64,000 nt of DNA from assembly GCF_011752065.1 (NCBI RefSeq), contig NZ_JAAIJY010000017.1, positions 1 through 64,000 on the forward strand, in the 5' to 3' direction. The stretch is from Actinomyces sp. ZJ308. GTDB lineage: Bacteria > Actinomycetota > Actinomycetes > Actinomycetales > Actinomycetaceae. The notes beneath the pieces are model-generated. The model was not told the origin of the DNA. It was given only the letters and a program-made list of their open reading frames with translations, and searched no databases. The translations under genes and the position numbers were made by a program. This document shows, piece by piece, positions 11,841-25,239 of the stretch; the stretch's first letter is position 1, and every line of letters starts with the position of its first letter.

Positions 11841-12014
11841 TGTCCTCCGCTCATGATTCCTCGCCCCTCCAGCAAGGTTCTGAGACCAAGAGTTTCATAG
11901 TGTGAGACATTTGGAAGGCTCGCCGTCTCCCTGCGGACCCAGGAGGTTGTCCATTCCAGAAGAGGGCGGCGCGTTCAGCCCTCACCGCCCCGGCCCACCC
12001 GGCACAATGGCCAG

Positions 12015-12494
12015 GTGATCCGCGCAGTAGGGACTGACCTGGTCGACGTCACCCGCCTCGAAGGCTACATGGACCGGGTACCCGGCCTGCGCGAGCGCCT
12101 CTTCACCCCCGTCGAGCTGGCCGCCTGCCAGAAGCGGGCCGCCTCCCTGGGGGCGCGCCTGGCGGCCAAGGAGGCGGTTCTCAAGGCGCTGGGGTCGGCC
12201 TACGCCGAGCTCGGGCTGGACGCTCCCGAGGGGTGGGCCTACAGGGACATCGAGGTGACCTCGACACCCGGTACCCCGCCGCGCCTGCGCCTGACCGGGG
12301 CGGCCGCGATGGCCGCGCGCCAGGCGGGTATCGGCCACTGGCACCTCTCACTGGCCCACGACGGCGGCATGGCGCAGGCCTTCGTCGTCGCCCAGGCCGA
12401 TCACGTGGACAACGACGACGACCTGGCCCTGTCCTCCCAACGCTCCGAGGCGCGCACGAAACCGCAGGTCAGGTCCCTGCGCCCGGCCCAGTAG
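12015..12494 (+). CDS. acpS: Holo-[acyl-carrier-protein] synthase
   Basis: Transfers 4'-phosphopantetheine from CoA to acyl carrier protein, activating fatty acid synthesis. The N-terminus has the Mg-binding GTDLVDVTRLE, then LFTPVELAAC and LAAKEAVLKALG, all signature elements. HLSLAHDGGMAQAFVV ends the fold near residue 130. The last 25 residues are polar and extend beyond a minimal AcpS. GTG start at 12015 is the only start that includes the Asp motif. Its promoter region is shared with divergent nnr, and it converges on glmS. Confidence 0.95.
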   Translation: MIRAVGTDLVDVTRLEGYMDRVPGLRERLFTPVELAACQKRAASLGARLAAKEAVLKALGSAYAELGLDAPEGWAYRDIEVTSTPGTPPRLRLTGAAAMAARQAGIGHWHLSLAHDGGMAQAFVVAQADHVDNDDDLALSSQRSEARTKPQVRSLRPAQ

Positions 12495-12519
12495 CCCAGC
12501 GCAGTGACCCAGCCCAGTA

Positions 12520-12553
12520 GGCGCCGGGCCCCGCACGTGCGGGGCCCGGCGCC
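12520..12553. terminator. Perfect 34-bp palindrome between acpS and glmS
   Basis: A fully symmetric GC-rich palindrome centred between 12536 and 12537, lying 26 bp after the acpS stop and 34 bp after the glmS stop. Both transcripts would form the same very stable hairpin; there is no T tract on either side, which is common in actinobacterial terminators. Confidence 0.8.
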
Positions 12554-12586
12554 GTTGAGGGCCGAGTCGATGCGTCGGCGTCGGTC

Positions 12587-14491
<1,905 letters not shown>

Positions 14492-14538
14492 GCTCCGATC
14501 GAATCATGCTGACGCGACGTTGACAACGAGCGCAGGGC

Positions 14539-14582
14539 CACGTCGGTGTGATCTCGGTGTGACGCCGGCGTGATCCCGAAGG
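14539..14582. repeat. Degenerate 11-bp tandem repeats, glmS side (4 units)
   Basis: Four consecutive 11-bp units start at 14539, 14550, 14561 and 14572. They share a GA-x-G/C-TCGGTGT-like pattern, the last resembling the better conserved array at 14662-14716. They lie 50-90 bp upstream of the glmS start. Confidence 0.6.
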
Positions 14583-14636
14583 GGCCGCCGCACGCCCCAG
14601 ACGCTCTTGTTGGAGTCCCTTCCCGAGCTCCCGGTT

Positions 14637-14654
14637 GATATCCGAGTGGATATC
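14637..14654. promoter_or_regulatory. Operator-like palindrome in the glmS-coaA intergenic region
   Basis: GATATCC-N4-GGATATC is a perfect 18-bp inverted repeat placed between the two 11-bp repeat arrays. Size and spacing suit a dimeric repressor site; the protein is unknown. Confidence 0.45.
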
Positions 14655-14661
14655 CCGCCGA

Positions 14662-14716
14662 GATCCCGACGCGATCCCAACGCGATCCCGACGCGATCCC
14701 GATGAGATCCCAATGA
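14662..14716. repeat. Five tandem 11-bp repeats, coaA side
   Basis: Five head-to-tail copies begin at 14662, 14673, 14684, 14695 and 14706. Each starts GATCCC, followed by R-A-Y-G and two variable bases. The array ends 53 bp before the coaA start. The 11-bp period is close to one helical turn, so every copy faces the same side of the DNA. Confidence 0.85.
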
Positions 14717-14768
14717 GTCCTCTTCGATCCGCCGGGATTGTCCGTCGAGCGCCTCTTTTTGCGACACT

Positions 14769-15752
14769 GTGTCGGTGACCTCCGAGCTGAGCGACCCGAG
14801 TGACCTGGGCATCCCGGGCGCCTCGCCCTATATCCAGCTGGACCGCGACCAGTGGTCCGCGCTGGCCTCATCGGCACCGCTGCCGCTGACCCAGGCCGAC
14901 GTCGAGAAGCTGCGGGGCCTGGGCGACCCCATCGACCTGGCCGAGGTGGACGCCGTCTACCGTCCCCTGACCGCGCTGCTGGAGGACTACATCGCCACCT
15001 CGCGTGAGCGCGCGCACCGCACCGGCGCCTTCCTGGGCGTGGACGAGCCGTCCACGCCCTTCGTCGTCGCGGTGGCCGGATCGGTCGCCGTCGGCAAGTC
15101 GACGACGGCGCGTCTCATCGCCCACCTGCTCTCCCGCTTTCCGGACACACCCCGCGTGGATCTGGTGACCACCGACGGCTTCCTCCTGCCCAACCGGGTC
15201 CTCGAGGAGCGCGGGCTCATGGCCCGCAAGGGCTTCCCCGAGTCCTACGACCGCCGCGCGCTGCTGGAGTTCGTCGCGGCCGTGAAGTCCGGCAGTGCGC
15301 GGGTTCAGGCCCCCGTCTACTCCCACACGGTCTACGACATCGTCCCGGGCCGGCACGTGACGGTGGAGCGCCCCGACATCCTCGTCCTGGAGGGGCTCAA
15401 CGTCCTCCAGCCCGCGCCGCGGGGAACGCGGCCGGGAGCCTCGGCCCTGGCGGTCAGTGACTTCATCGACTTCTCGATCTACGTCGACGCCGACCCCGCC
15501 GACATCCGCCGCTGGTACCTGGACCGCTTCCTCACCCTCAAGCACACGGCCTTCACCCAGCCGGGATCCTACTTCCGGCGCTTCGCCGAGATCCCCGACG
15601 ACGTCGCCCTGGCCGGGGCGGGCGAGATCTGGGAGAGCGTCAACCTGGTCAACCTGCGCGAGAACATCGCCCCCACCCGCGGCCGGGCCACCCTGGTCCT
15701 GACCAAGGACTCCGAGCACCGCATGAGCCGGGTCCTGCTGCGCAAGTCCTGA
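14769..15752 (+). CDS. coaA: Pantothenate kinase (type I, CoaA)
   Basis: ATP-dependent first step of CoA synthesis. The P-loop AVAGSVAVGKSTTARLI is near residue 98, followed by VDLVTTDGFLLPN, KGFPESYDRRALLEF and VYSHTVYDIVPG, the bacterial type I signatures, and YVDADPADIRRWYLDRF. 327 residues, normal length. GTG at 14769 is used; another GTG two codons later is possible. It is divergent from glmS, across the repeat array. The last codons form one arm of the terminator stem. Confidence 0.94.
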   Translation: MSVTSELSDPSDLGIPGASPYIQLDRDQWSALASSAPLPLTQADVEKLRGLGDPIDLAEVDAVYRPLTALLEDYIATSRERAHRTGAFLGVDEPSTPFVVAVAGSVAVGKSTTARLIAHLLSRFPDTPRVDLVTTDGFLLPNRVLEERGLMARKGFPESYDRRALLEFVAAVKSGSARVQAPVYSHTVYDIVPGRHVTVERPDILVLEGLNVLQPAPRGTRPGASALAVSDFIDFSIYVDADPADIRRWYLDRFLTLKHTAFTQPGSYFRRFAEIPDDVALAGAGEIWESVNLVNLRENIAPTRGRATLVLTKDSEHRMSRVLLRKS

Positions 15753-15777
15753 ACAGGCCTGAGCGGGACTTGCGCAG
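15738..15777 (+). terminator. coaA terminator overlapping its 3' coding end
   Basis: A perfect 12-bp inverted repeat (15738-15749 with 15766-15777), loop 16 bp containing the TGA stop. The left arm encodes the last four residues of CoaA, so the coding end doubles as a terminator arm. Confidence 0.65.
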
Positions 15778-15846
15778 GCCCGAACAGCCCGATCCTGAAG
15801 CCGGTACGAAGGCGGCCTGAAACCGGAGGGCCGCAGGCTGGCGGCC

Positions 15847-16902
15847 ATGACAGCACAGGCAAGCACCAAGGCTTCTATGAGCATTCTCGTCGTCGGCCTG
15901 GGGGTGATCGGAGCGACCTACGGCTACCTCTTCCAGAAGGCCGGCCACCGGGTCGAGCACCTGGTTCGCAGCAGCAGCGCGAGGTCCGGGATCAGCTCGC
16001 TCGAGGTGGAGATCCTCGATGGCAGGACCGATACGAAGGGCTCGTTGTCCCACGACCGCTACAGCGTTCACCACCATGTTCACCACCGTGCACGCAGCCG
16101 TTACGACCTCATCGTGGTCTCAGTGCCGCAGGGCAGGATCGCCGAGGTGATGGCCGACCTCGATGCGGGCGGTATCGAGGGGCCCGTTCTGCTGTTCTGC
16201 GGTTTCTGGGGAGAGCGTGAGGAGCTCGACGGTCTACTGGCCGGCCGCGACGTCATCCTGGGGTACCCGGTGGCGGGCGGGGGGTACCCGGTGGCGGGCG
16301 GGAGCATCACGGGCAACCGGCTCGACTGCTGCGTCTTCGACCACGTCATGCTGGAGCGGCGCGACAGGGCCCGCTTCCCCGGTTATGAGCGGGTGGAGGC
16401 GTTGTTCGCCTCCTGCGGCATCAGCCTGGAGCGCCCCTACGACATGCTCGAGTGGATCTGGTTGCACATGGCGATCAATGCCGGTGTCGGCGCCGTGGCG
16501 GGAATGTACGGCGATATCGAGGACACGACGCGCTCGGCCGAACAGCTCATGGGTTCAACCAGGATGCTCGCCCGAGCGGTCAGGGCGATTCGAGAGACGT
16601 CCAGGATCGTGGCGTCGCGCGGCGTCGATCTGAGCCGTTACCGCGGCGAGCTGCTGGCATACAGGCTGCCGACGGCCGTTTCCGCACCCCTCATGAGACG
16701 CATGTTCGCCAGGAATCTCCTCACCCGCAGGATCATGACGCTGCACGGCAACACCGACGACCTGCTGTTCGTCTGCGGAACTGTCTACGAGCAGGGCAGG
16801 GGTGGAGGGATTCCCGCCCCCGTCTTTTACGAGAGCTACGAGGCGGTTCGTGGCAAGGCCGCCCGCCGTGGCTCCGGCACTGCCGACATCGCCAGGCCTT
16901 GA
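15847..16902 (+). CDS. Ketopantoate reductase-like (ApbA/PanE family) protein
   Basis: An NAD(P)-binding Rossmann motif opens the protein (ILVVGLGVIGATYGYLF, about residues 13-29), followed by DLIVVSVPQGRIAEVM and a C-terminal helical domain (WIWLHMAINAGVGAVAGMYG) typical of the ApbA/PanE_C fold. Substrate is not certain: many family members reduce other 2-keto acids, and the classic catalytic Lys context is not obvious. A 21-bp perfect tandem duplication (16261-16302) repeats GYPVAGG in frame. It follows coaA after a terminator, so a CoA role is only suggested by position and family. The start could also be the Met at residue 11 (MSILVVG). Confidence 0.75.
   Translation: MTAQASTKASMSILVVGLGVIGATYGYLFQKAGHRVEHLVRSSSARSGISSLEVEILDGRTDTKGSLSHDRYSVHHHVHHRARSRYDLIVVSVPQGRIAEVMADLDAGGIEGPVLLFCGFWGEREELDGLLAGRDVILGYPVAGGGYPVAGGSITGNRLDCCVFDHVMLERRDRARFPGYERVEALFASCGISLERPYDMLEWIWLHMAINAGVGAVAGMYGDIEDTTRSAEQLMGSTRMLARAVRAIRETSRIVASRGVDLSRYRGELLAYRLPTAVSAPLMRRMFARNLLTRRIMTLHGNTDDLLFVCGTVYEQGRGGGIPAPVFYESYEAVRGKAARRGSGTADIARP
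16261..16302 (+). repeat. 21-bp perfect tandem duplication inside the PanE-like gene
   Basis: Two identical 21-bp copies (16261-16281 and 16282-16302) add seven residues, GYPVAGG, without shifting the frame. The unit is GC-rich and prone to slippage, so copy number may vary between strains. Confidence 0.9.
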
Positions 16903-16976
16903 AAGACCGTCGCCCGAAACGGGTGCCTCGCCGGATAGGATCGACCGCCTGGCGCGATCACCCACTCATCACATCA

Positions 16977-17468
16977 CTACTCATCGTTCGTGGTACGACC
17001 GGTCTGCCCAGCGGGAGACGGATAAGTGATATCCGGCATGTCCCCGGGGATATCGATGCGCCCCACGCTCCCATGACAAAGTGCCGCTGCTGTGCGCGCA
17101 GCGGCCGAGACATGATCCCACAAGAGGCGTGCGGCCCAGGGGCCGTATTGCTGCGCGACAGCACTGAGCTCTTCTCGCATCGCGGTCTCATCCGCTTCGT
17201 CATCGGAAGCAGCGAACACGATGCTGGCGGTAGCGCCGACGAACCACTCGCCGGCGCCGACGGCGAGGTCACCGACGAGGGCGTGGATCGGAGCGGTCTC
17301 CTCCGGCGCCATCTGTACTTCAACCGGGCTGATTCGCCACTGAACGAAGTCCTCCTCCATGTCCTGCGGCTGACAGATGACACGGACGGTCTGGAGCTGG
17401 AGGACGGTGGTCGATCGTAGTGGGAGACTCTGATCTTTCACCTCGTCAGGGTTCGACCTGGCCGTCAT
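16977..17468 (-). CDS. SecB-like chaperone of a toxin-antitoxin-chaperone (TAC) module
   Basis: The 163-residue product has the length and layout of SecB-like proteins. There is an N-terminal beta region, then a segment of the form EELSAVAQQYGPWAARLLWD leading into a helix (HVSAAARTAAALCHG) and a final IDIPGDMPDITYP strand. This matches, feature for feature, the C-terminal half of SecB and of Mycobacterium tuberculosis Rv1957 as I remember them (acidic-Leu helix, G-x-x-x-L-x-P-Y-x-R-E, short strand with P). Here the YPYxRE position reads LWDHVSA, so similarity is weak by identity. I chose the ATG at 17468 because it overlaps the antitoxin stop (ATGA); a longer frame to 17528 lies within the antitoxin. 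Confidence 0.6.
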   Translation of the reverse strand: MTARSNPDEVKDQSLPLRSTTVLQLQTVRVICQPQDMEEDFVQWRISPVEVQMAPEETAPIHALVGDLAVGAGEWFVGATASIVFAASDDEADETAMREELSAVAQQYGPWAARLLWDHVSAAARTAAALCHGSVGRIDIPGDMPDITYPSPAGQTGRTTNDE

Positions 17469-17854
17469 GCTCCCACCAGCTTGCCCGTGGACACTCGTCG
17501 TGCCGCCTCCGTCGAGGACGAGTTCCACCTGTAGTCGGACATGCCGGCGTTGCGGGTGGCAAGACGAACTTCATGTCCGTCGACAGGAACCACCTCATGG
17601 CGGATGACTGCTCCCACGGCCTTGGCGTAACGCCGTACCGTGGACAGGTGGGCGTCTGCGTGACCCGACTCGAACCGGGAGACGGAGGCCTGGCTGGTAC
17701 CCATGGCGTGAGCAACGTCAGCCTGAGTCATACCGCTGCGCTCGCGCACGGCAACGAGGTCACGGATCAACGCGCGATCGGCAGAGACCAGGCTGCGTGC
17801 ATGCCTGTAACCAGGGGCATCCGGATCCTCACCAAGAAGCTCGTAGATGTCCAT
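17465..17854 (-). CDS. higA: HigA-like XRE-family antitoxin with C-terminal chaperone-dependence tail
   Basis: The 129-residue product has a classic Cro/C1 helix-turn-helix (LVAVRERSGMTQADVAHAMG, then TSQASVSRFESGHADAHLST, about residues 33-72) and a C-terminal tail of about 40 residues containing DYRWNSSS and RRVSTGKLV. In M. tuberculosis HigA1 a similar tail with a central Trp makes folding depend on the SecB-like partner. Gene order here is toxin, antitoxin, SecB-like, as in that TAC locus. It should bind DNA to autorepress; an imperfect palindrome lies 22 bp upstream. Symbol given by family and context. Confidence 0.75.
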   Translation of the reverse strand: MDIYELLGEDPDAPGYRHARSLVSADRALIRDLVAVRERSGMTQADVAHAMGTSQASVSRFESGHADAHLSTVRRYAKAVGAVIRHEVVPVDGHEVRLATRNAGMSDYRWNSSSTEAARRVSTGKLVGA

Positions 17855-17875
17855 GTGTTCTCACCACCTCGTGGG

Positions 17876-17895
17876 ATATATCGGTGACGACATAT
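17876..17895. promoter_or_regulatory. Candidate HigA-type operator
   Basis: ATATATCG-N4-CGACATAT is a 20-bp inverted repeat with one mismatched pair, in an AT-rich patch between toxin and antitoxin genes. It is just upstream of the antitoxin start, the expected place for autoregulation. The AT-rich half-site recalls the ATATAGG/CCTATAT site reported for mycobacterial HigA1. Confidence 0.5.
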
Positions 17896-17941
17896 TAGCC
17901 TCTGGTTCAGGCATGTGAAGGGCGCTTCGTCACATCTCACA

Positions 17942-18433
17942 TCACCTCATCCGCCGCGACCGCGACCAGGACTCGAAACGCTCCTGCGCCTCAGCGATGT
18001 GCCCGTCCTGCTCCTCCAGTCCGATCATTCCGCCTCGCTTGTGGCGGAAGCTGAGCGAGAGCAGCAGGCGGTCCTCGTCGTCCGGCTCACTGAAGTACAG
18101 GCGCATGTAACGTCGCTCTCCGTCGAGGTCGACGGTCAGCTCCAGGCGGGCCTCGAGCACGTCATGCGCACTTCGAGCCTTGCAGACGACGCCCTTGGTG
18201 TAGGTGGTGTCGAAGTTGAGACGACCAGCCTCTGCATCCTGGAGTAGCTGGTGGACCTCGGCCAGGAGCATCTGCCACTCGTCTTCACCGATGCCACACG
18301 CCCGCAGCTCGCTCATCTCCCTGGTCAGATAAGGGCGCCAGTGGTTATCGACGGCGTTTCTCCAATACCCGCCAAGACGACACGAACGAGCCCCGTAGCC
18401 GTAAACCTTGTCATGGAGAAGGGCGGCCATCAT
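17942..18433 (-). CDS. higB: HigB/RelE-superfamily toxin of the TAC module (start uncertain)
   Basis: The C-terminal 110 residues fit the HigB/phage Gp49-like mRNA interferase pattern. WRPYLTREMSEL is followed by a helix (EWQMLLAEVHQLLQDAEAG), then the beta core LEARLELTVDLDGERRYMRLYF, LLLSLSFRHKRGG, and the final amphipathic helix with IAEAQERF. These would cleave ribosome-bound mRNA. It lies 87 bp upstream of the HigA-like gene in the toxin-first order of HigBA. The frame is open back to a GTG at 18643, overlapping the divergent ABC gene. I chose the ATG at 18433 (163 residues) because no earlier start avoids the divergent promoter; an N-terminal extension of about 40 residues before the toxin core remains. 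Confidence 0.6.
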   Translation of the reverse strand: MMAALLHDKVYGYGARSCRLGGYWRNAVDNHWRPYLTREMSELRACGIGEDEWQMLLAEVHQLLQDAEAGRLNFDTTYTKGVVCKARSAHDVLEARLELTVDLDGERRYMRLYFSEPDDEDRLLLSLSFRHKRGGMIGLEEQDGHIAEAQERFESWSRSRRMR

Positions 18434-18609
18434 GACCACGCTCGCAACGAGAACGATCTCATCGGGACTCCTGGGGGTGCTCTGGAGTGATTCATGAGGA
18501 TCGTAGCTTCTGCCGTTCGGCTCGACGCCGTCGTCGGACGAGACGGCGTGAAACTCGGCTCCATCTCGGTGAAGCCGTGCTGAAACCGTGCAGATCCAGC
18601 CTTGGCGGC

Positions 18610-19683
18610 ATGACCACACCAACAGCGACCGAATCGCCCTCACCCAACGAGCCCCCGGCCATCAGGACCGACGGACTGACGCGCGACTTCGGCTCCTTCA
18701 CCGCCGTCGATTCCCTGAATCTGGAGATTCCCGCCGGCATCGTCTACGGCCTGCTCGGCCCCAACGGCGCCGGCAAGTCCACGGCGCTGCGCATGATCAC
18801 CACCCTGCTGGCGCCCACCCGCGGCCGGGCGATGGTCCTGGGCCGCGACGTCGTCCGCGAGCGCCACGCCGTGCGCAGCCTCATCGGGGTGACGGGCCAG
18901 TACGCCAGCGTCGACGAGATGCTCACCGGGGTGGAGAACCTGCGGCTCTTCGGGCGCCTGCTGGGCCTTGGCCGACGGCGGGCGCGTGAGCGGGCCGACG
19001 AGCTGCTGGCCGCCTTCAGCCTGACCGAGGCGGGCGGTAAGCGGGTGAACAGCTACTCCGGTGGGATGCGGCGTCGACTGGACCTGGCCGTCTCCCTCAT
19101 CGCCCAGCCCCCGCTCGTCTTCCTGGACGAGCCCACCACCGGATTGGACCCGCGCACGCGTGAGCAGATGTGGGACGTCATCCGCTCCCTGGTGAAGGGC
19201 GGCTCCACGATCCTGCTGACCACCCAGTACCTGGAGGAGGCCGACCGCCTGGCCCACCGGGTCGGCATCATCGACGCCGGGCGGCTCATCGCCGAGGGCA
19301 CGCCCGATGAGCTCAAGGACCGGGTGGGCAGCAGCTCGCTCATCCTGACCCCGTCCGTACCCGAGGACCAGGCGGCCACCGCCGAGGTCATCGAGCGGGT
19401 CACCGGTCACGCCCCGGCGGTGACCGACCGGGGTATCCAGGGCGCGCGTCTGCAGACGCCGCTGACCGAGGCGTCTGTGGCCACCGAGGTGCTCGTGGCC
19501 CTGCGCGACGCCGGACTGTCCCCCAGGACCGTCTCGGTGGACCGCCCCAGCATGGACTCGGTCTTCATGGCCCTGACCGGCCACCCCAGGCAGGAGACCG
19601 ACGCCCCGCCCATTCCCTCCGCCGAGCCGTCGGCCTCCTCCCCCGCAACCATCCGTCCCGACGACGTCGAGGAGCAGTCATGA
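18610..19683 (+). CDS. ABC-2 transporter ATP-binding protein (DrrA-type)
   Basis: The motor of a two-gene exporter. Walker A is [12 protein letters not shown] (about residue 47), Q-loop in [15 protein letters not shown], signature [16 protein letters not shown], Walker [14 protein letters not shown] and the switch His region [19 protein letters not shown]. The C-terminal domain with [16 protein letters not shown] is the DrrA-type tail of drug and lipid exporters. ATG at 18610 ([10 protein letters not shown]) is preferred over an upstream frame reading arginine-rich junk. It overlaps the permease by 4 bp. Substrate unknown. Confidence 0.9.
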
Positions 19684-20531
19684 CCTCCCCCGCAGCAACC
19701 GCAACCGCCCTGCCGAACGGATCCGCCCCGTCCTCCGCCCTGTCCTCCAAGGGCTCTCGATTCAGTGAGGCGCGACTGGTCCCGGACACGCTCGCCATGG
19801 CCTGGCGCTCCCTCATCGCCATGGTGCGCAACCCTGGCGAGTTCTACGACATCCTCATCCAGCCGGTCATGTTCACCGTCATGTTCGGCGAGCTCTTCGG
19901 CGGTGCGATCGCCGGGGACGTCAAGGCCTACCTGCCCACGATCGTTCCGGGTCTCATCATCATCAACGCCCTGACCACGAGCCAGAGCGTGGGCGTGGAC
20001 CTGCGCGAGGACATGGACAAGGGAGTCTTCGACCGCTTCCGCACCATGCCGATGTCCCGGATCGCACCGGTCCTGGGGCCGATGGTCTCCGATGTGCTGC
20101 GTTATCTCATCTGCACGTCGCTGACGGTGCTGACCGGCTACGTCCTGGGCTACCGGCCTGAGAACGGCTGGTCAGGGACACTCGGCGCCATCGCCCTGGC
20201 GGCGGGCTGCGCCTGGGCGATCGCCTGGACCTTCCTGTTCCTGGGGACGGTCTTCTCCTCGGCCCAGGCGGTCACCTCCTTCACGGTCATCGTCCTGTTC
20301 CCGCTGACCTTCCTGTCCAACGCCATGGTGCCCACCGCGACGCTGCCGGGCTGGCTCAAGGCCTTCGCGCGTCACAACCCGGTCTCGCACATCGTCGACG
20401 GCTGCCGCTACCTGCTGGACGGGACGGCGGGATCGTCCGGGGACGTGCGCACGGCCATCCTCGGCTCGCTGCTGGTGCTGGCGGTCATGGCCCCGCTGAC
20501 GATTGTCCGCTACCAGCGGCGAAACGCCTGA
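19680..20531 (+). CDS. ABC-2 transporter permease (DrrB-type)
   Basis: Membrane half of the exporter. 283 residues with a polar N-terminal 40, then six hydrophobic spans including QPVMFTVMFGELFGG and VIVLFPLTFLSNAMVPTATL, the latter the typical ABC-2 motif. A conserved LPGWLKAFARHNPVSHIVD segment precedes the last span. ATGA overlap with the ATPase gene shows translational coupling. The pair ends 38 bp from a convergent large regulator gene, which may control it, though this is inference from position only. Confidence 0.88.
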   Translation: MTSPAATATALPNGSAPSSALSSKGSRFSEARLVPDTLAMAWRSLIAMVRNPGEFYDILIQPVMFTVMFGELFGGAIAGDVKAYLPTIVPGLIIINALTTSQSVGVDLREDMDKGVFDRFRTMPMSRIAPVLGPMVSDVLRYLICTSLTVLTGYVLGYRPENGWSGTLGAIALAAGCAWAIAWTFLFLGTVFSSAQAVTSFTVIVLFPLTFLSNAMVPTATLPGWLKAFARHNPVSHIVDGCRYLLDGTAGSSGDVRTAILGSLLVLAVMAPLTIVRYQRRNA

Positions 20532-20537
20532 GTGCGA

Positions 20538-20567
20538 CGTTCGGTTGCCCGCCACGGCGGCCGAACG
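20538..20567. terminator. Bidirectional terminator between the ABC permease and regulator genes
   Basis: An outer 7-bp inverted repeat CGTTCGG/CCGAACG (20538-20544, 20561-20567) encloses a 5-bp hairpin CCGCC-AC-GGCGG. It exactly fills the 37-bp gap between the two convergent stops. Confidence 0.6.
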
Positions 20568-20568
20568 G

Positions 20569-23500
20569 TCAGCGGCTCCAGCCGGTCTCGCTCGCCATAC
20601 GGCGGGCGAGGCCGGCCGCGTGCGCGACCAGCCGACCGCGGTCCAGGGGCCGTATCCGGTCCTCGGCCTCGGCCAGCGCCCGGGCGTCGAGCCGCTCGGT
20701 GCGGGTGCGCAGGTAGTCGTGGGAGAGCAGGCGGCAGGTCTGGTTGGTGCCCACGGCCAGTGCCGTGGCGACCAGCTCGGCTCCTGCGGCCCGCTGCGGG
20801 GAGCCCGCCGGCGCGGCGGCTGCGGCTGACAGGCCGACGGCCGCGGCGAAGGCCATGACGGTGGGGATGTCGCGCTGGCGTGGGGCGGGGTCGGACAGGA
20901 TGTCGCGCAGCAGCCGAACCGCCCGGGCGCGGATGGCCCCGGCGTCGAGCTCGACGGCGTCGTCGGGGCTGAGCTCGATGTCGGTGATCAGGCACATGCT
21001 CAGGATGTAGAGCTCCCACTGCGACCCGGCCCCCAGGATGGAGCGCCAGTGCCCGGCGTAGCGCAGGCTCATGCGCTGGGTGAGGGCGGCGGTGCGCACG
21101 CGCCCGCGGGTGAGCTCCAGCTCTCCGCGCACGGAACGGGCGATGAAGCGCATGGTTCCCGGCAGGTCGACGGGATCCAGGCTCTCCAGCAGCCTGTCCG
21201 CCGTCTGCGGCCTGGGATCGAGGCAGACCGCGCAGTAGGCGGCCTCCAGCCGCAGGGTGGTGCGGAAGAACCCGCTCCAGCTCGGCAGGATCCTCTCCAG
21301 GAGCACCTGGGCGCACGTGCACGCCTCGACGACCTGGCCGTAGCGTCCCAGGGACATGAGTACCTGCAGGCGGTGGAGGTGCAGCTCGAGCAGGTGGATA
21401 CCGGCCAGGTCGTTGCCGTGCAGCCGGTCCAGAAGGGTCTCGATGGTCTCCAGGGAGGCGCCGGGGTCACCGTCGTCCTCCTGCTGGGCCGCCAGGCAGC
21501 GGGTCGCGGCCCAGGCGACCCAGGGGTCGGCGTCGCGGGCCAGCTCTGGCCACTGCTCGTCTCCGGCGCGCAGGAAGCGCCGCACCCGGCTGAGGGGCCC
21601 CTCGCCGTCGAAGGAGGCCGACAGCAGGGAGCGGACCTGTGTGGGCATGTGGCTCAGGAGCCCGAACAGGGTGACGCACAGGGCCAGGACGGCGAGCCCC
21701 GCCTCGTTGCCACGCGGGTCCAGGGCCGGCTGGGCGGCGGGTCGGATGAGGCGCGAGCCGTAGTCCGCGATGCGCTCGTAGCTCCAGGTGACGCTCCACA
21801 GCCGCATGAGTGCGGCGCCGATGAGGCAGATCGCGTCGCGCAGCTCGCCGGGCAGACGGTCCGGTTCCTTGACGTCGGCCTGCGCCAGGAGCCGGTCGAG
21901 CTCCTGGACGATGACCGCCTCGTTGTCGGTGACCTGCTGGAAGACACGATCGTGCCAGTGGGCCTGAGGGTGGTCGGCAGCGCCGAAGTCGCCGGCGTCG
22001 ATGGGGAAGCGGATCTGGGAGCACAGGTCGACCACCCATTCGTGCAAGGCCCTCCTGGCCGTCGTCTCGTCCCCGGAGACGGACAGCTGCTCCAGGGCGA
22101 AGTCTCGGACGGTGACGAGCATGTGGAAGCGGGGCAGACCGCGGTCGCGCACCGCGAGCAGGGAGTGGGCGACCAGGGCGTCAAGAGCATCGGCGCCGTC
22201 AGCGCCGATGAGCGCCTCCGCGGCGGCAAGGGTGAAGCCGTCGGCGAGCAGCGCCAGATGTGCCATGGCCCGGCGCTCTGCGCTATCGAGAAGGTTCCAG
22301 GACCACTCGATGACCGCTCTCAGGGTGCGTTGACGGGCGGGGGCGTCCCGAGCCCCGGTGAGCAGCTCGGGCCGGTCGGGAAGCCGCTCGGCGATCTGAC
22401 GCGCTGACAGGCTGCGGGTGCGCGCGGCGGCCAGCTCGATGGCCAGGGGGATGCCGTCGAGCCGGCCGAGAAGGTCGTCCAGGTCCTCGTCGTCGATGAC
22501 CTGCTCGGGACGGGCCGCCAGGGCGCGGGCGCGGAAGAGCTCGGCCGCCGAGGCCGTATCCAGCGGTGCGAGGCGGTGGACATGCTCCGCCCCCAGCTCG
22601 AGGGGACGGCGCGAGGTGGCCAGGACCCGCAGGTCGGGGCAGGCGGCCAGCAGTGGTCCGACGAGGTCGGCGACCTCGTCGGCCAGGTGCTCGCAGTTGT
22701 CCAGGACAAGGACGGTTCCGGGTAGGGCGAGGGCGGCGGCCAGGGAGCTGCGCGGGTCGCCATCGGCCGCCGGAGGGTTCCCGACGGCGTCGAGCAGGAC
22801 CCTGGTCAGATCGGCGCCGGGTGCGACCTCGGCCAGGTGGGCGACGTAGACGGCGGGGCGGCGGCTGCGGGCCGCGACCACCTGGGCCAGGGTGGTCTTG
22901 CCGACTCCTCCCGACCCGGTGAGCGTCACCAGCCGGTGGGCGCTCAGGGCCTTGAGGACGCCGGTCACATCCGCCTCACGCCCCAGGAAGTGCTCGGGCG
23001 CGGGCTCCAGGCCGCGGCGCACGGGGCTCTCTGCGGCCAGGACGGCCTCGTGGGCGGCACGCATGGCCGGACCGGGCACGGCTCCCTGCTCGCGCAGGCG
23101 GCGGCGGTGCTCCTCGTAGATCTCCAGGGCGGCGGCGGGCGAGCGCGCCCAGGACTCGGCACGCATGAGGGCGGCCAGGACGGCCTCGTCGCCGGGGTCG
23201 CGCCGGGCGGCCTCGCGTAGCAGGTCCGCGGCCCGCTCGTGCTCGCCGGTGGACTCCAGGGCCAGGGCCCGGTCATGTTCGGCCGCTTCGGCCTGGGTGA
23301 CGGCGCGCGCCCGCAGGACGGTGACGGGGGATGCTTCTGATCCGGCGACGTCGGCCTCATCGGGAGCGGGCACCCGGGGCAGGGCGCCGGTGAGATCCAG
23401 GACCTGGTCCCACTGGCCCTCGGTGGCGCAGGTGCGGGCCCGGTGCGCCCGATCGGCCAGGTCGAGGGCGTCGACCTGCGCCATGGGCAGCGCCAGCCGG

Positions 23501-23772
23501 TACCCGTCGCCGGTGCGCTCGACGACGCCCTCCCCCACCGCCGTCCGCGCCCGGGAGACGACGACGTGCAGGGCCCGCAGGGGCCGGGCGGGGGCGTCAT
23601 CGGGCCACAGGGCCCCGATGAGGGCGCCGTCGCTCATCCGGGAGTCCTGGCCGCCAGCAAGGACGGCGAGCAGGTCGAGGGTCCGCCCGCTCAGGGCCCT
23701 GCCGCGCCAGGTCGGCGGATCCGTCAGGAGAGACAAGAGGTGGGAGGCCGTCACGGGGCCATCCTCCCCCAT
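20569..23772 (-). CDS. Large BTAD/NB-ARC transcriptional regulator (AfsR/SARP-like)
   Basis: The 1067-residue protein opens with a winged-helix OmpR/SARP DNA-binding region (about 10-95: LSGRTLDLLAVLAG, ALIGALWPDDAP, LRALHVVVSRARTAVG). It continues with a BTAD helical domain (about 100-250), an NB-ARC-type ATPase (Walker A GSGGVGKTTLAQVVA near 284; Walker B VLVLDNCEHLADEV; RVLATSRRPLEL) and a long helical C-terminal repeat region. Such proteins sense a ligand and activate neighbouring genes. Start is uncertain between GTG-coded Met 1 at 23772 and GTG seven codons in. It converges on the ABC exporter genes. Confidence 0.88.
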   Translation of the reverse strand: MGEDGPVTASHLLSLLTDPPTWRGRALSGRTLDLLAVLAGGQDSRMSDGALIGALWPDDAPARPLRALHVVVSRARTAVGEGVVERTGDGYRLALPMAQVDALDLADRAHRARTCATEGQWDQVLDLTGALPRVPAPDEADVAGSEASPVTVLRARAVTQAEAAEHDRALALESTGEHERAADLLREAARRDPGDEAVLAALMRAESWARSPAAALEIYEEHRRRLREQGAVPGPAMRAAHEAVLAAESPVRRGLEPAPEHFLGREADVTGVLKALSAHRLVTLTGSGGVGKTTLAQVVAARSRRPAVYVAHLAEVAPGADLTRVLLDAVGNPPAADGDPRSSLAAALALPGTVLVLDNCEHLADEVADLVGPLLAACPDLRVLATSRRPLELGAEHVHRLAPLDTASAAELFRARALAARPEQVIDDEDLDDLLGRLDGIPLAIELAAARTRSLSARQIAERLPDRPELLTGARDAPARQRTLRAVIEWSWNLLDSAERRAMAHLALLADGFTLAAAEALIGADGADALDALVAHSLLAVRDRGLPRFHMLVTVRDFALEQLSVSGDETTARRALHEWVVDLCSQIRFPIDAGDFGAADHPQAHWHDRVFQQVTDNEAVIVQELDRLLAQADVKEPDRLPGELRDAICLIGAALMRLWSVTWSYERIADYGSRLIRPAAQPALDPRGNEAGLAVLALCVTLFGLLSHMPTQVRSLLSASFDGEGPLSRVRRFLRAGDEQWPELARDADPWVAWAATRCLAAQQEDDGDPGASLETIETLLDRLHGNDLAGIHLLELHLHRLQVLMSLGRYGQVVEACTCAQVLLERILPSWSGFFRTTLRLEAAYCAVCLDPRPQTADRLLESLDPVDLPGTMRFIARSVRGELELTRGRVRTAALTQRMSLRYAGHWRSILGAGSQWELYILSMCLITDIELSPDDAVELDAGAIRARAVRLLRDILSDPAPRQRDIPTVMAFAAAVGLSAAAAAPAGSPQRAAGAELVATALAVGTNQTCRLLSHDYLRTRTERLDARALAEAEDRIRPLDRGRLVAHAAGLARRMASETGWSR

Positions 23773-23804
23773 CGCGGCCGGGCCGATGGCCTCGACGATC
23801 GAGG

Positions 23805-23853
23805 GCCGGCTGCAGAACTCGCCACCTGGCTGGTGGCTGTGTCCGCAGCCGGC
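23805..23853 (-). terminator. glmM terminator
   Basis: A nested inverted repeat, 9-bp outer stem (23805-23813 with 23845-23853) and inner 6-bp hairpin GCCACC/GGTGGC (23821-23837), begins 25 bp past the glmM stop. Confidence 0.55.
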
Positions 23854-23877
23854 TCCGGAGAGGGGTCCGTCCTCAGC

Positions 23878-25239
23878 TCACAGACTGAGGTTGCTCTTGA
23901 CGGTGTCGGCCAGGGAGCGGGCCACGCGGTCGGCCTCCTCCTGGGTGGAGGCCTCGACCATGACGCGCACGAGCGGCTCGGTGCCCGAGGGCCGCAGTAG
24001 GACGCGTCCGGTCTCACCCAGCTCCTTCTCCGCGGAGGCCACCGCGTCCTGCACGGACTGGTTGGTGCTGGCGGCCGCCTTGTCGACGTTCTTGACGTTG
24101 ATGAGCGTCTGGGGCAGGCGGGTGACGACGCTGGCGAGCTCGGCCAGGGTCTTGCCGCTGCGCTTGACGCGCGCGGCCACGCGCAGCGAGGTGAGCACGC
24201 CGTCACCAGTGGTGGCGTGGAGGGTGTCGATGACGTGGCCGGACTGCTCGCCGCCCAGGGTGTAGCCGCCCTGGAGCATGCGCTCGAGCACGTAGCGGTC
24301 GCCCACGCCGGTCTGGACGGTGCGGATGCCGTGCTCGCGCATCGCCAGGATGAGGCCGAGGTTGCTCATGACGGTGACGACGAGCGTGTCGGAGCCGAGG
24401 GTGCCGTCGGCCTTCATGCCGATGGCGAGCATCCCCATGATCTGGTCGCCGTCGACGAGCTGTCCGTCGGCGTCCACGGCCAGGCAGCGGTCGGCGTCGC
24501 CGTCGTAGGCCACGCCCATGTCCGCGCCGACGGCCTTGACGTAGTTCTGCAGCTGCTCGGGGTGGGTGGAGCCGCAGTTGTCGTTGATGTTGAGGCCGTC
24601 CGGGGAGGCGTTGATGACGATGACCTCGGCGCCTGAGGCGCGCAGCGCGGCGGGGCCGACGACGGAGGCGGCGCCGTTGGAGGCGTCGACGACGATGCGC
24701 AGCCCGGACAGGTCGGTGGCGGCGGAGTCGACGAGGTGGTTGATGTAGTTCTGGTCGGCGACGGTCTCGCCCTTGATGACGCGTCCGACGTCGGAGCCGG
24801 TGGGCCGGCCGTTGACCTTGCCCAGGAGGGCCTCGATCTCGTCCTCGACGGCGTCGGCGAGCTTGTAGCCGCCGCGGGCGATGAACTTGATGCCGTTGTC
24901 GGGGAAGGGGTTGTGGGAGGCGGAGATCATGACGCCCAGCTCGATGTCCTGCGTGGCCGTCAGGTGGGCGATCGCCGGGGTGGGCAGGACGCCCACGCGG
25001 GTGACGTCGACTCCGGAGGAGGCCAGGCCCGCGCTGATGGCGTGGTCGAGGAACTCTCCGGAGGCGCGGGTGTCACGCCCCACGATGGCGCGGGGGCGGA
25101 CGCTGCGCGAGCGCCGGGTGGCGGGGGTGTCCTTGGTCAGGACACGGGCCGCGGCCTCACCGAGCTGTACGGCCAGGGTGGGCGTGAGCAGGTCGTTGGC
25201 CAGGCCGCGTACGCCGTCGGTTCCGAAGAGACGAGCCAT
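23878..25239 (-). CDS. glmM: Phosphoglucosamine mutase
   Basis: Converts glucosamine-6-phosphate to glucosamine-1-phosphate for UDP-GlcNAc. It starts MARLFGTDGVRGLAND, carries the phosphoserine loop MISASHNPFPDNGIKF near residue 104, the metal site DGDADRCLAVD, the sugar loop GGEQSGHVI and the phosphate-binding RPSGTEPLVRVMVE. 453 residues, standard. The ATG at 25239 follows an AGGAGG ribosome site; an upstream open extension is non-coding. Downstream of rplM-rpsI, the usual actinobacterial order. Confidence 0.96.
   Translation of the reverse strand: MARLFGTDGVRGLANDLLTPTLAVQLGEAAARVLTKDTPATRRSRSVRPRAIVGRDTRASGEFLDHAISAGLASSGVDVTRVGVLPTPAIAHLTATQDIELGVMISASHNPFPDNGIKFIARGGYKLADAVEDEIEALLGKVNGRPTGSDVGRVIKGETVADQNYINHLVDSAATDLSGLRIVVDASNGAASVVGPAALRASGAEVIVINASPDGLNINDNCGSTHPEQLQNYVKAVGADMGVAYDGDADRCLAVDADGQLVDGDQIMGMLAIGMKADGTLGSDTLVVTVMSNLGLILAMREHGIRTVQTGVGDRYVLERMLQGGYTLGGEQSGHVIDTLHATTGDGVLTSLRVAARVKRSGKTLAELASVVTRLPQTLINVKNVDKAAASTNQSVQDAVASAEKELGETGRVLLRPSGTEPLVRVMVEASTQEEADRVARSLADTVKSNLSL

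Follow-up and report, generated by a model that had tools for sequence, protein, structure and literature searches.

Tripartite toxin-antitoxin-chaperone (TAC) systems are already known. In the HigB1-HigA1-Rv1957 system of Mycobacterium tuberculosis, residues W108, R110 and Y114 in the ChAD of the antitoxin HigA1 bind the SecB-fold chaperone Rv1957 (PMC6377645), and HigA1 lacking its last 42 residues becomes chaperone-independent and less efficient (PMC5105189). Two phage-sensing systems of Escherichia coli, CmdTAC of strain ECOR22 and higBAC of strain C496, also have a SecB-like chaperone guarding the antitoxin; the trigger is a capsid protein in the first and a tail protein in the second (PMC11618068, PMC11980606). 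The HigB of Streptococcus pneumoniae, whose entry is titled a toxin-antitoxin module, is also among the closest known systems. Here we describe a locus of Actinomyces sp. ZJ308 (genome size 3.28 Mb) in a window of 64,000 nucleotides, which comprises positions 1 to 64,000 of contig NZ_JAAIJY010000017.1. We consider it highly probable that three of its genes constitute a TAC module with a SecB-fold chaperone that is invisible to the SecB family profile PF02556. What is new is that both the chaperone and the toxin lie outside the reach of the profiles searched.

The three genes lie on the minus strand: a gene for a toxin of HigB/RelE fold (17942-18433; product P0001, 163 amino acids), a gene for an XRE antitoxin (17465-17854; product P0002, 129 amino acids, consisting of a helix-turn-helix core and a tail of 41 amino acids) and a third gene for a chaperone of SecB fold (16977-17468; product P0003, 163 amino acids). 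The frames that an earlier note on this DNA had read at these positions are all open, and the ATGA overlap by which it had coupled the third gene to the antitoxin is present, joining the stop of one to the start of the other. Judging from order, spacing and overlap, the toxin and antitoxin genes and that of the SecB-type chaperone form a putative operon. The toxin start is ambiguous (ATG at 18433 or GTG two codons upstream), and its frame remains open up to 18643; the upstream part is interrupted by stops in three related loci (L015, L016 and L018). The ratio of nonsynonymous to synonymous substitution (dN/dS) ranged from 0.13 to 0.32 in nine comparisons, three genes each against three relatives. 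Since homologues elsewhere also keep the gene order, all three behave as real genes.

The predicted single-chain model of P0003 has the SecB fold, and its best Foldseek match was the M. tuberculosis structure 5mtw. The predicted model of P0001 has the HigB/RelE fold, with the long C-terminal helix that is also present in M. tuberculosis. The earlier note had made its reading depend on these two folds, and each was both predicted and matched to a known structure. Its proposed profile search divided the three proteins. The XRE assignment of P0002 was confirmed by HTH_3 (E 5.3e-10, 39.6 bits against a cut-off of 23), while HigB/Gp49 and PF02556 found nothing. Scans of Pfam (including the Gp49 and HigB toxin models), NCBIfam and PADLOC at E up to 10, with filters that discard most matches above about 0.1, returned no match for P0001 or P0003, nor did PHROGs at E up to 1. 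No curated Pfam toxin model thus recognised P0001, and P0003 is not filed in PF02556 by sequence; the only match to PF02556 in the genome, weak and below cut-off (E 0.65), sits on another contig. Sequence searches of solved structures with P0001, P0003 and their profiles gave chance-level matches only (best E 0.024), as did the toxins of two relatives. Read by eye, the third protein is also without the YPYxRE text, as the earlier note had observed. The same library did detect PF02556 in the canonical TAC of genome G974 (L063 1910-3232), which belongs to the same class and served as positive control: its chaperone scored 28.9 bits, over the cut-off, and its toxin reached 23.5 bits with Gp49, just below 23.9. 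Consequently, the suggestion of a divergent or new chaperone subfamily holds. The G974 system shares the order toxin-antitoxin-chaperone with the window but has no profile similarity to its families. Likewise, the M. tuberculosis system resembles the window in gene order, in both folds and in a tryptophan-bearing antitoxin tail, but no sequence profile links the proteins, and structure alignments gave 22% identity to HigB1 and 3% to Rv1957. An earlier survey started from PF02556 and also searched for TAC chaperones that this profile might miss (PMC4257090).

In the toxin, residues E94, R96, R111, Y113, E116, K132 and Q142 are invariant across the 11 toxin rows of alignment A5, and a more distant first gene in genome G163 keeps all of these except R96. 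The proposed catalytic site of HigB-TAC consists of E66, R68, R77 and K95 (PMC9098466). The window toxin, with its E-x-R, a further R and a K on the terminal strand, fits this arrangement, matched by pattern only, although R96 and R111 are spaced further apart than their HigB-TAC counterparts. CmdT differs from the HigB-fold toxin of the window in being an ADP-ribosyltransferase (PMC11618068).

The module recurs in other genomes. P0003 was found in 11 of 198 relatives, and profiles A1 and A4 of the third family (E limits 0.001 / 0.01) matched 4 and 5, respectively, of 395 genomes of the order, with G163 recurring; among 395 genomes of the phylum, A1 matched none. Together these searches gave 15 non-self genomes with a third-gene match (G006, G011, G012, G026, G027, G034, G040, G046, G163, G127, G145, G359, G444, G471 and G233), and 12 of them keep the order toxin-XRE-third gene. 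The matches in G127 and G145 were rejected as probable chance, being weak, with one in-frame TGA each and no adjoining toxin or antitoxin found. The whole locus is present in Actinomyces johnsonii and Actinomyces gerencseriae, and a remnant is present in Actinomyces oris S64C. The same gene order occurs in MT837022, an unannotated contig of a phage collection from human fecal samples, in which the third gene matched A4 (probability 98.2, E 6e-14) and the toxin matched profile A5 (probability 99.4, E 5e-22). This was the single phage record found with P0001, which gave nothing in plasmids. P0003 itself had no match in plasmids or phages, and its eight pattern matches in viral contigs included no relative. 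For comparison, among 296 genomes of the class, two had a PF02556 match at cut-off, and one of these two is 8% contaminated.

The toxin side matched nine of the 198 relatives. Seven of these are the same modules, and the other two (G116, L034 740-1920; G167, L035 649-1935) have relatives of the toxin and antitoxin followed by a third gene dissimilar to both P0003 and PF02556, possibly a further SecB-fold family in each case. In A. oris S64C a different set of toxin-like, XRE and third genes (L020 4047-5653, also L042), whose third protein contains the text FPYIREAL, adjoins what is left of a P0003-family gene, its C-terminal part, as if one TAC had replaced another at the site. Comparison of the P0003-family profile with the third genes of these three genomes (G116, G167 and A. 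oris S64C) gave nothing, and we do not count them as members.

The antitoxin tail may be a further link to the chaperone. The window antitoxin has the tryptophan-containing tail that the earlier note had described, with one tryptophan there and none in the helix-turn-helix core. The same pattern, with one to three tryptophans in the tail and none in the core, was observed in 13 of 13 antitoxins beside a third gene of the family (the window, 11 genomes and MT837022; the broken antitoxin of G012 was excluded). Note that six of these belong to closely related Actinomyces, which leaves about seven independent lineages. Outside the family, the tail of the G167 antitoxin has no tryptophan, and alignment A6 places the one tryptophan of the G116 antitoxin in its tail. 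The tail tryptophan of the window may be compared, by analogy, with W108 in the ChAD of HigA1; the tail sequence itself is different and has that one tryptophan, whereas two motifs are described for HigA1 (PMC6377645). The window antitoxin ends in KLVGA. Since CmdA ends in LAA, a signal for ClpXP (PMC11618068), a C-terminal degron is plausible here.

Genome G022 has an informative variant at the same site (L066 2142-2463). An intact gene there encodes the first 93 residues of the antitoxin and stops where the tail would begin, and neither toxin nor third gene was found at the site. Its core is identical to that of the window at 75 of 88 residues and to that of L018 at 81 of 88, and an inverted repeat that precedes the antitoxin in the window (described below) precedes it here as well, with one mismatch. 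In comparisons with four relatives the core gave dN/dS of 0.13-0.14; with the closest relative it gave 0.40, a value that may represent relaxed constraint following recent loss. Joint loss of toxin, third gene and tail with the helix-turn-helix core left open is what one would expect of a tail that is there to serve the chaperone. This solo antitoxin, a core and an operator-like repeat without tail, toxin or chaperone, offers a natural comparison for tail function.

These observations bear on the alternative that survives best, in which toxin and antitoxin form an ordinary two-gene pair of HigBA type and the SecB-fold protein serves another client, for instance in protein export, rather than the antitoxin. 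In its favour, the M. tuberculosis TAC chaperone can also replace E. coli SecB (PMC5105189). Against such an arrangement, the third gene is joined to the antitoxin through the ATGA overlap and accompanies the pair in other genomes, all three are jointly absent at the empty sites described below, the antitoxin tails carry tryptophan, and the loss in G022 took toxin, tail and third gene alike. We therefore regard it as improbable and retain the TAC reading, which is drawn from the SecB and HigB folds, the gene order, the tail tryptophan, the joint loss in G022, the residue pattern of the toxin and purifying selection.

Several observations weigh against this reading. The structure matches are modest (Foldseek E 8.2e-4 for P0003 and at best 2.6e-3 for the toxin), and the P0003 model is poor at residues 1-16, 92-96 and 154-163. 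No sequence profile ties P0003 to PF02556, and comparison of the third-gene family with the canonical TAC chaperone of G974 gave nothing. On the toxin side, tblastn with P0001 misses the first gene in G163 and G471, and the G471 gene matched the toxin profile weakly (probability 2.1, E 0.023). The ChADs of characterised TACs are reported to have no significant similarity among them (PMC5105189), so a tail tryptophan is a weak marker, and the endpoint of the G022 deletion could be due to chance. In a second alternative P0003 would be a different kind of small alpha+beta protein, for example a hotdog thioesterase, and its structure match would reflect a common arrangement; thioesterases do appear among its Foldseek matches, from rank 22, and P0003 has no sequence match to SecB, but with the SecB structure 5mtw ranking first we give this explanation very little credence.

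Two candidate control elements lie upstream of the antitoxin gene. The inverted repeat TATRTC-N6-GAYATA (17877-17894, strandless) is probably the antitoxin operator. It occurs once in the 64-kb window at up to one mismatch, against 0.01 expected, for a pattern that was picked after viewing the module alignment from which it came. The repeat is exact and in the same position in the modules of six relatives, whereas none of the loci of G012, G163, G471, G444, G359, G233 and MT837022 matches it exactly. The operator of M. tuberculosis HigA is ATATAGG-N6-CCTATAT; a literature search for this operator found no paper. A consensus scan also found a weak promoter-like site, TTCACA-16-TAATAT (17892-17919, minus strand; one found, 0.3 expected), whose -10 element overlaps the inverted repeat. 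Upstream of the toxin, a leader frame of 10 codons with an AGGAG ribosome-binding site (18430-18462, minus strand) ends across the toxin start. Leaders of 10-11 codons and similar make-up, likewise with a ribosome-binding site, do so in six of seven modules compared, which suggests coupled translation. No Rfam family matched within 12000-24000, and the 64-kb window has no tRNA. The conserved repeat, the intact frames of the window and the low dN/dS against three relatives all argue against a decaying, now functionless remnant of a mobile toxin-antitoxin cassette, a reading we think very unlikely even though relatives offer signs of decay: in G006 the third gene is reduced to a C-terminal fragment, G022 retains the antitoxin core alone, and G012 has frameshifts in antitoxin and third gene, albeit in an assembly that is 82% complete.

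The module is an inserted unit. On one side lies a ketopantoate-reductase-like gene (15847-16902, an ApbA match) and on the other an ABC transporter operon from about 18610; what G044 lacks at its empty site corresponds to about 16924-18537 (strandless). Its GC content of 62.6% against 69.2% for the window bears out the earlier description of the region as less GC-rich than its surroundings. We compared the site in 11 Actinomyces genomes having coaA near the transporter permease and no intact module, and in all 11 the intact module was absent from this same site. In six of them the reductase and transporter flanks are parted by 10-38 bp of unmatched sequence, and in G028 these genes are about 140 bp apart. 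No reductase gene was found in G015 and G017, the site of G001 has an XRE gene plus a hydrolase-like one, and that of G022 has the solo antitoxin described above. In L051, L052 and L054, the XRE genes located between coaA and the gene for the reductase were considered as second TACs and rejected, since by eye they look like an XRE gene with a hydrolase-like gene. In L051 (3121-3189) and L052 (3288-3356) this insertion is bordered by a repeated 3' end of coaA (residues 305-327), perhaps an integration site.

Families were scanned in the neighbourhoods of seven modules (G012, MT837022, G444, G471, G167, G359 and G233). Next to the G012 module (L022 3788-10118) is an HsdR gene of type I restriction, which is split in the assembly, and the module precedes a PD-Lambda-5_A-like gene. 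In MT837022 (L061 2196-4691) a gene of 366 amino acids and a SIR2 defence-type gene are directly downstream of the module. HsdR neighbours the G167 module, a DUF4143 ATPase that of G359, and an M78 peptidase and a phage integrase that of G444; an endolysin-like gene lies about 1.8 kb from the module of G471. The one neighbour scanned in G233 had no family match.

We infer RNase activity, repression, chaperone dependence and a trigger as follows. The HigB-fold toxin would probably cut mRNA on the ribosome, and the XRE antitoxin would probably block the toxin and, through the inverted repeat, repress the promoter from which it is itself expressed. Its tryptophan-bearing tail would make the antitoxin unstable unless held by the SecB-fold protein, which is probably translated by coupling to the antitoxin. 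Diversion of the chaperone by another unfolded protein, for instance a structural protein of a phage or a substrate stuck in export, would lead to degradation of the antitoxin and free the toxin. Given the defence and phage genes that neighbour the modules of relatives, we lean slightly towards phage sensing over general stress control as the biological role. More tentatively, and with somewhat less than even confidence, the family may represent a hidden branch of phage-sensing TACs whose SecB-fold chaperones evolved too fast at the client-binding face for SecB profiles to follow. More such branches would then be represented by the genes in third position in G116, G167 and A. oris S64C, and surveys based on PF02556 would undercount the class.

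Our literature search, with most subscription journals outside its coverage, found no paper on a TAC in Actinomyces. The module adds oral Actinomyces to the known range of TAC systems, and to their chaperones a family for which sequence-family annotation has no name. A fold search also seems worthwhile for hypothetical genes that overlap genes for tryptophan-tailed XRE antitoxins at the 3' end. Should the chaperone act as the sensor, as it does in CmdTAC, a comparison of chaperone families of the same fold and different sequence could reveal the surface that reads the trigger.
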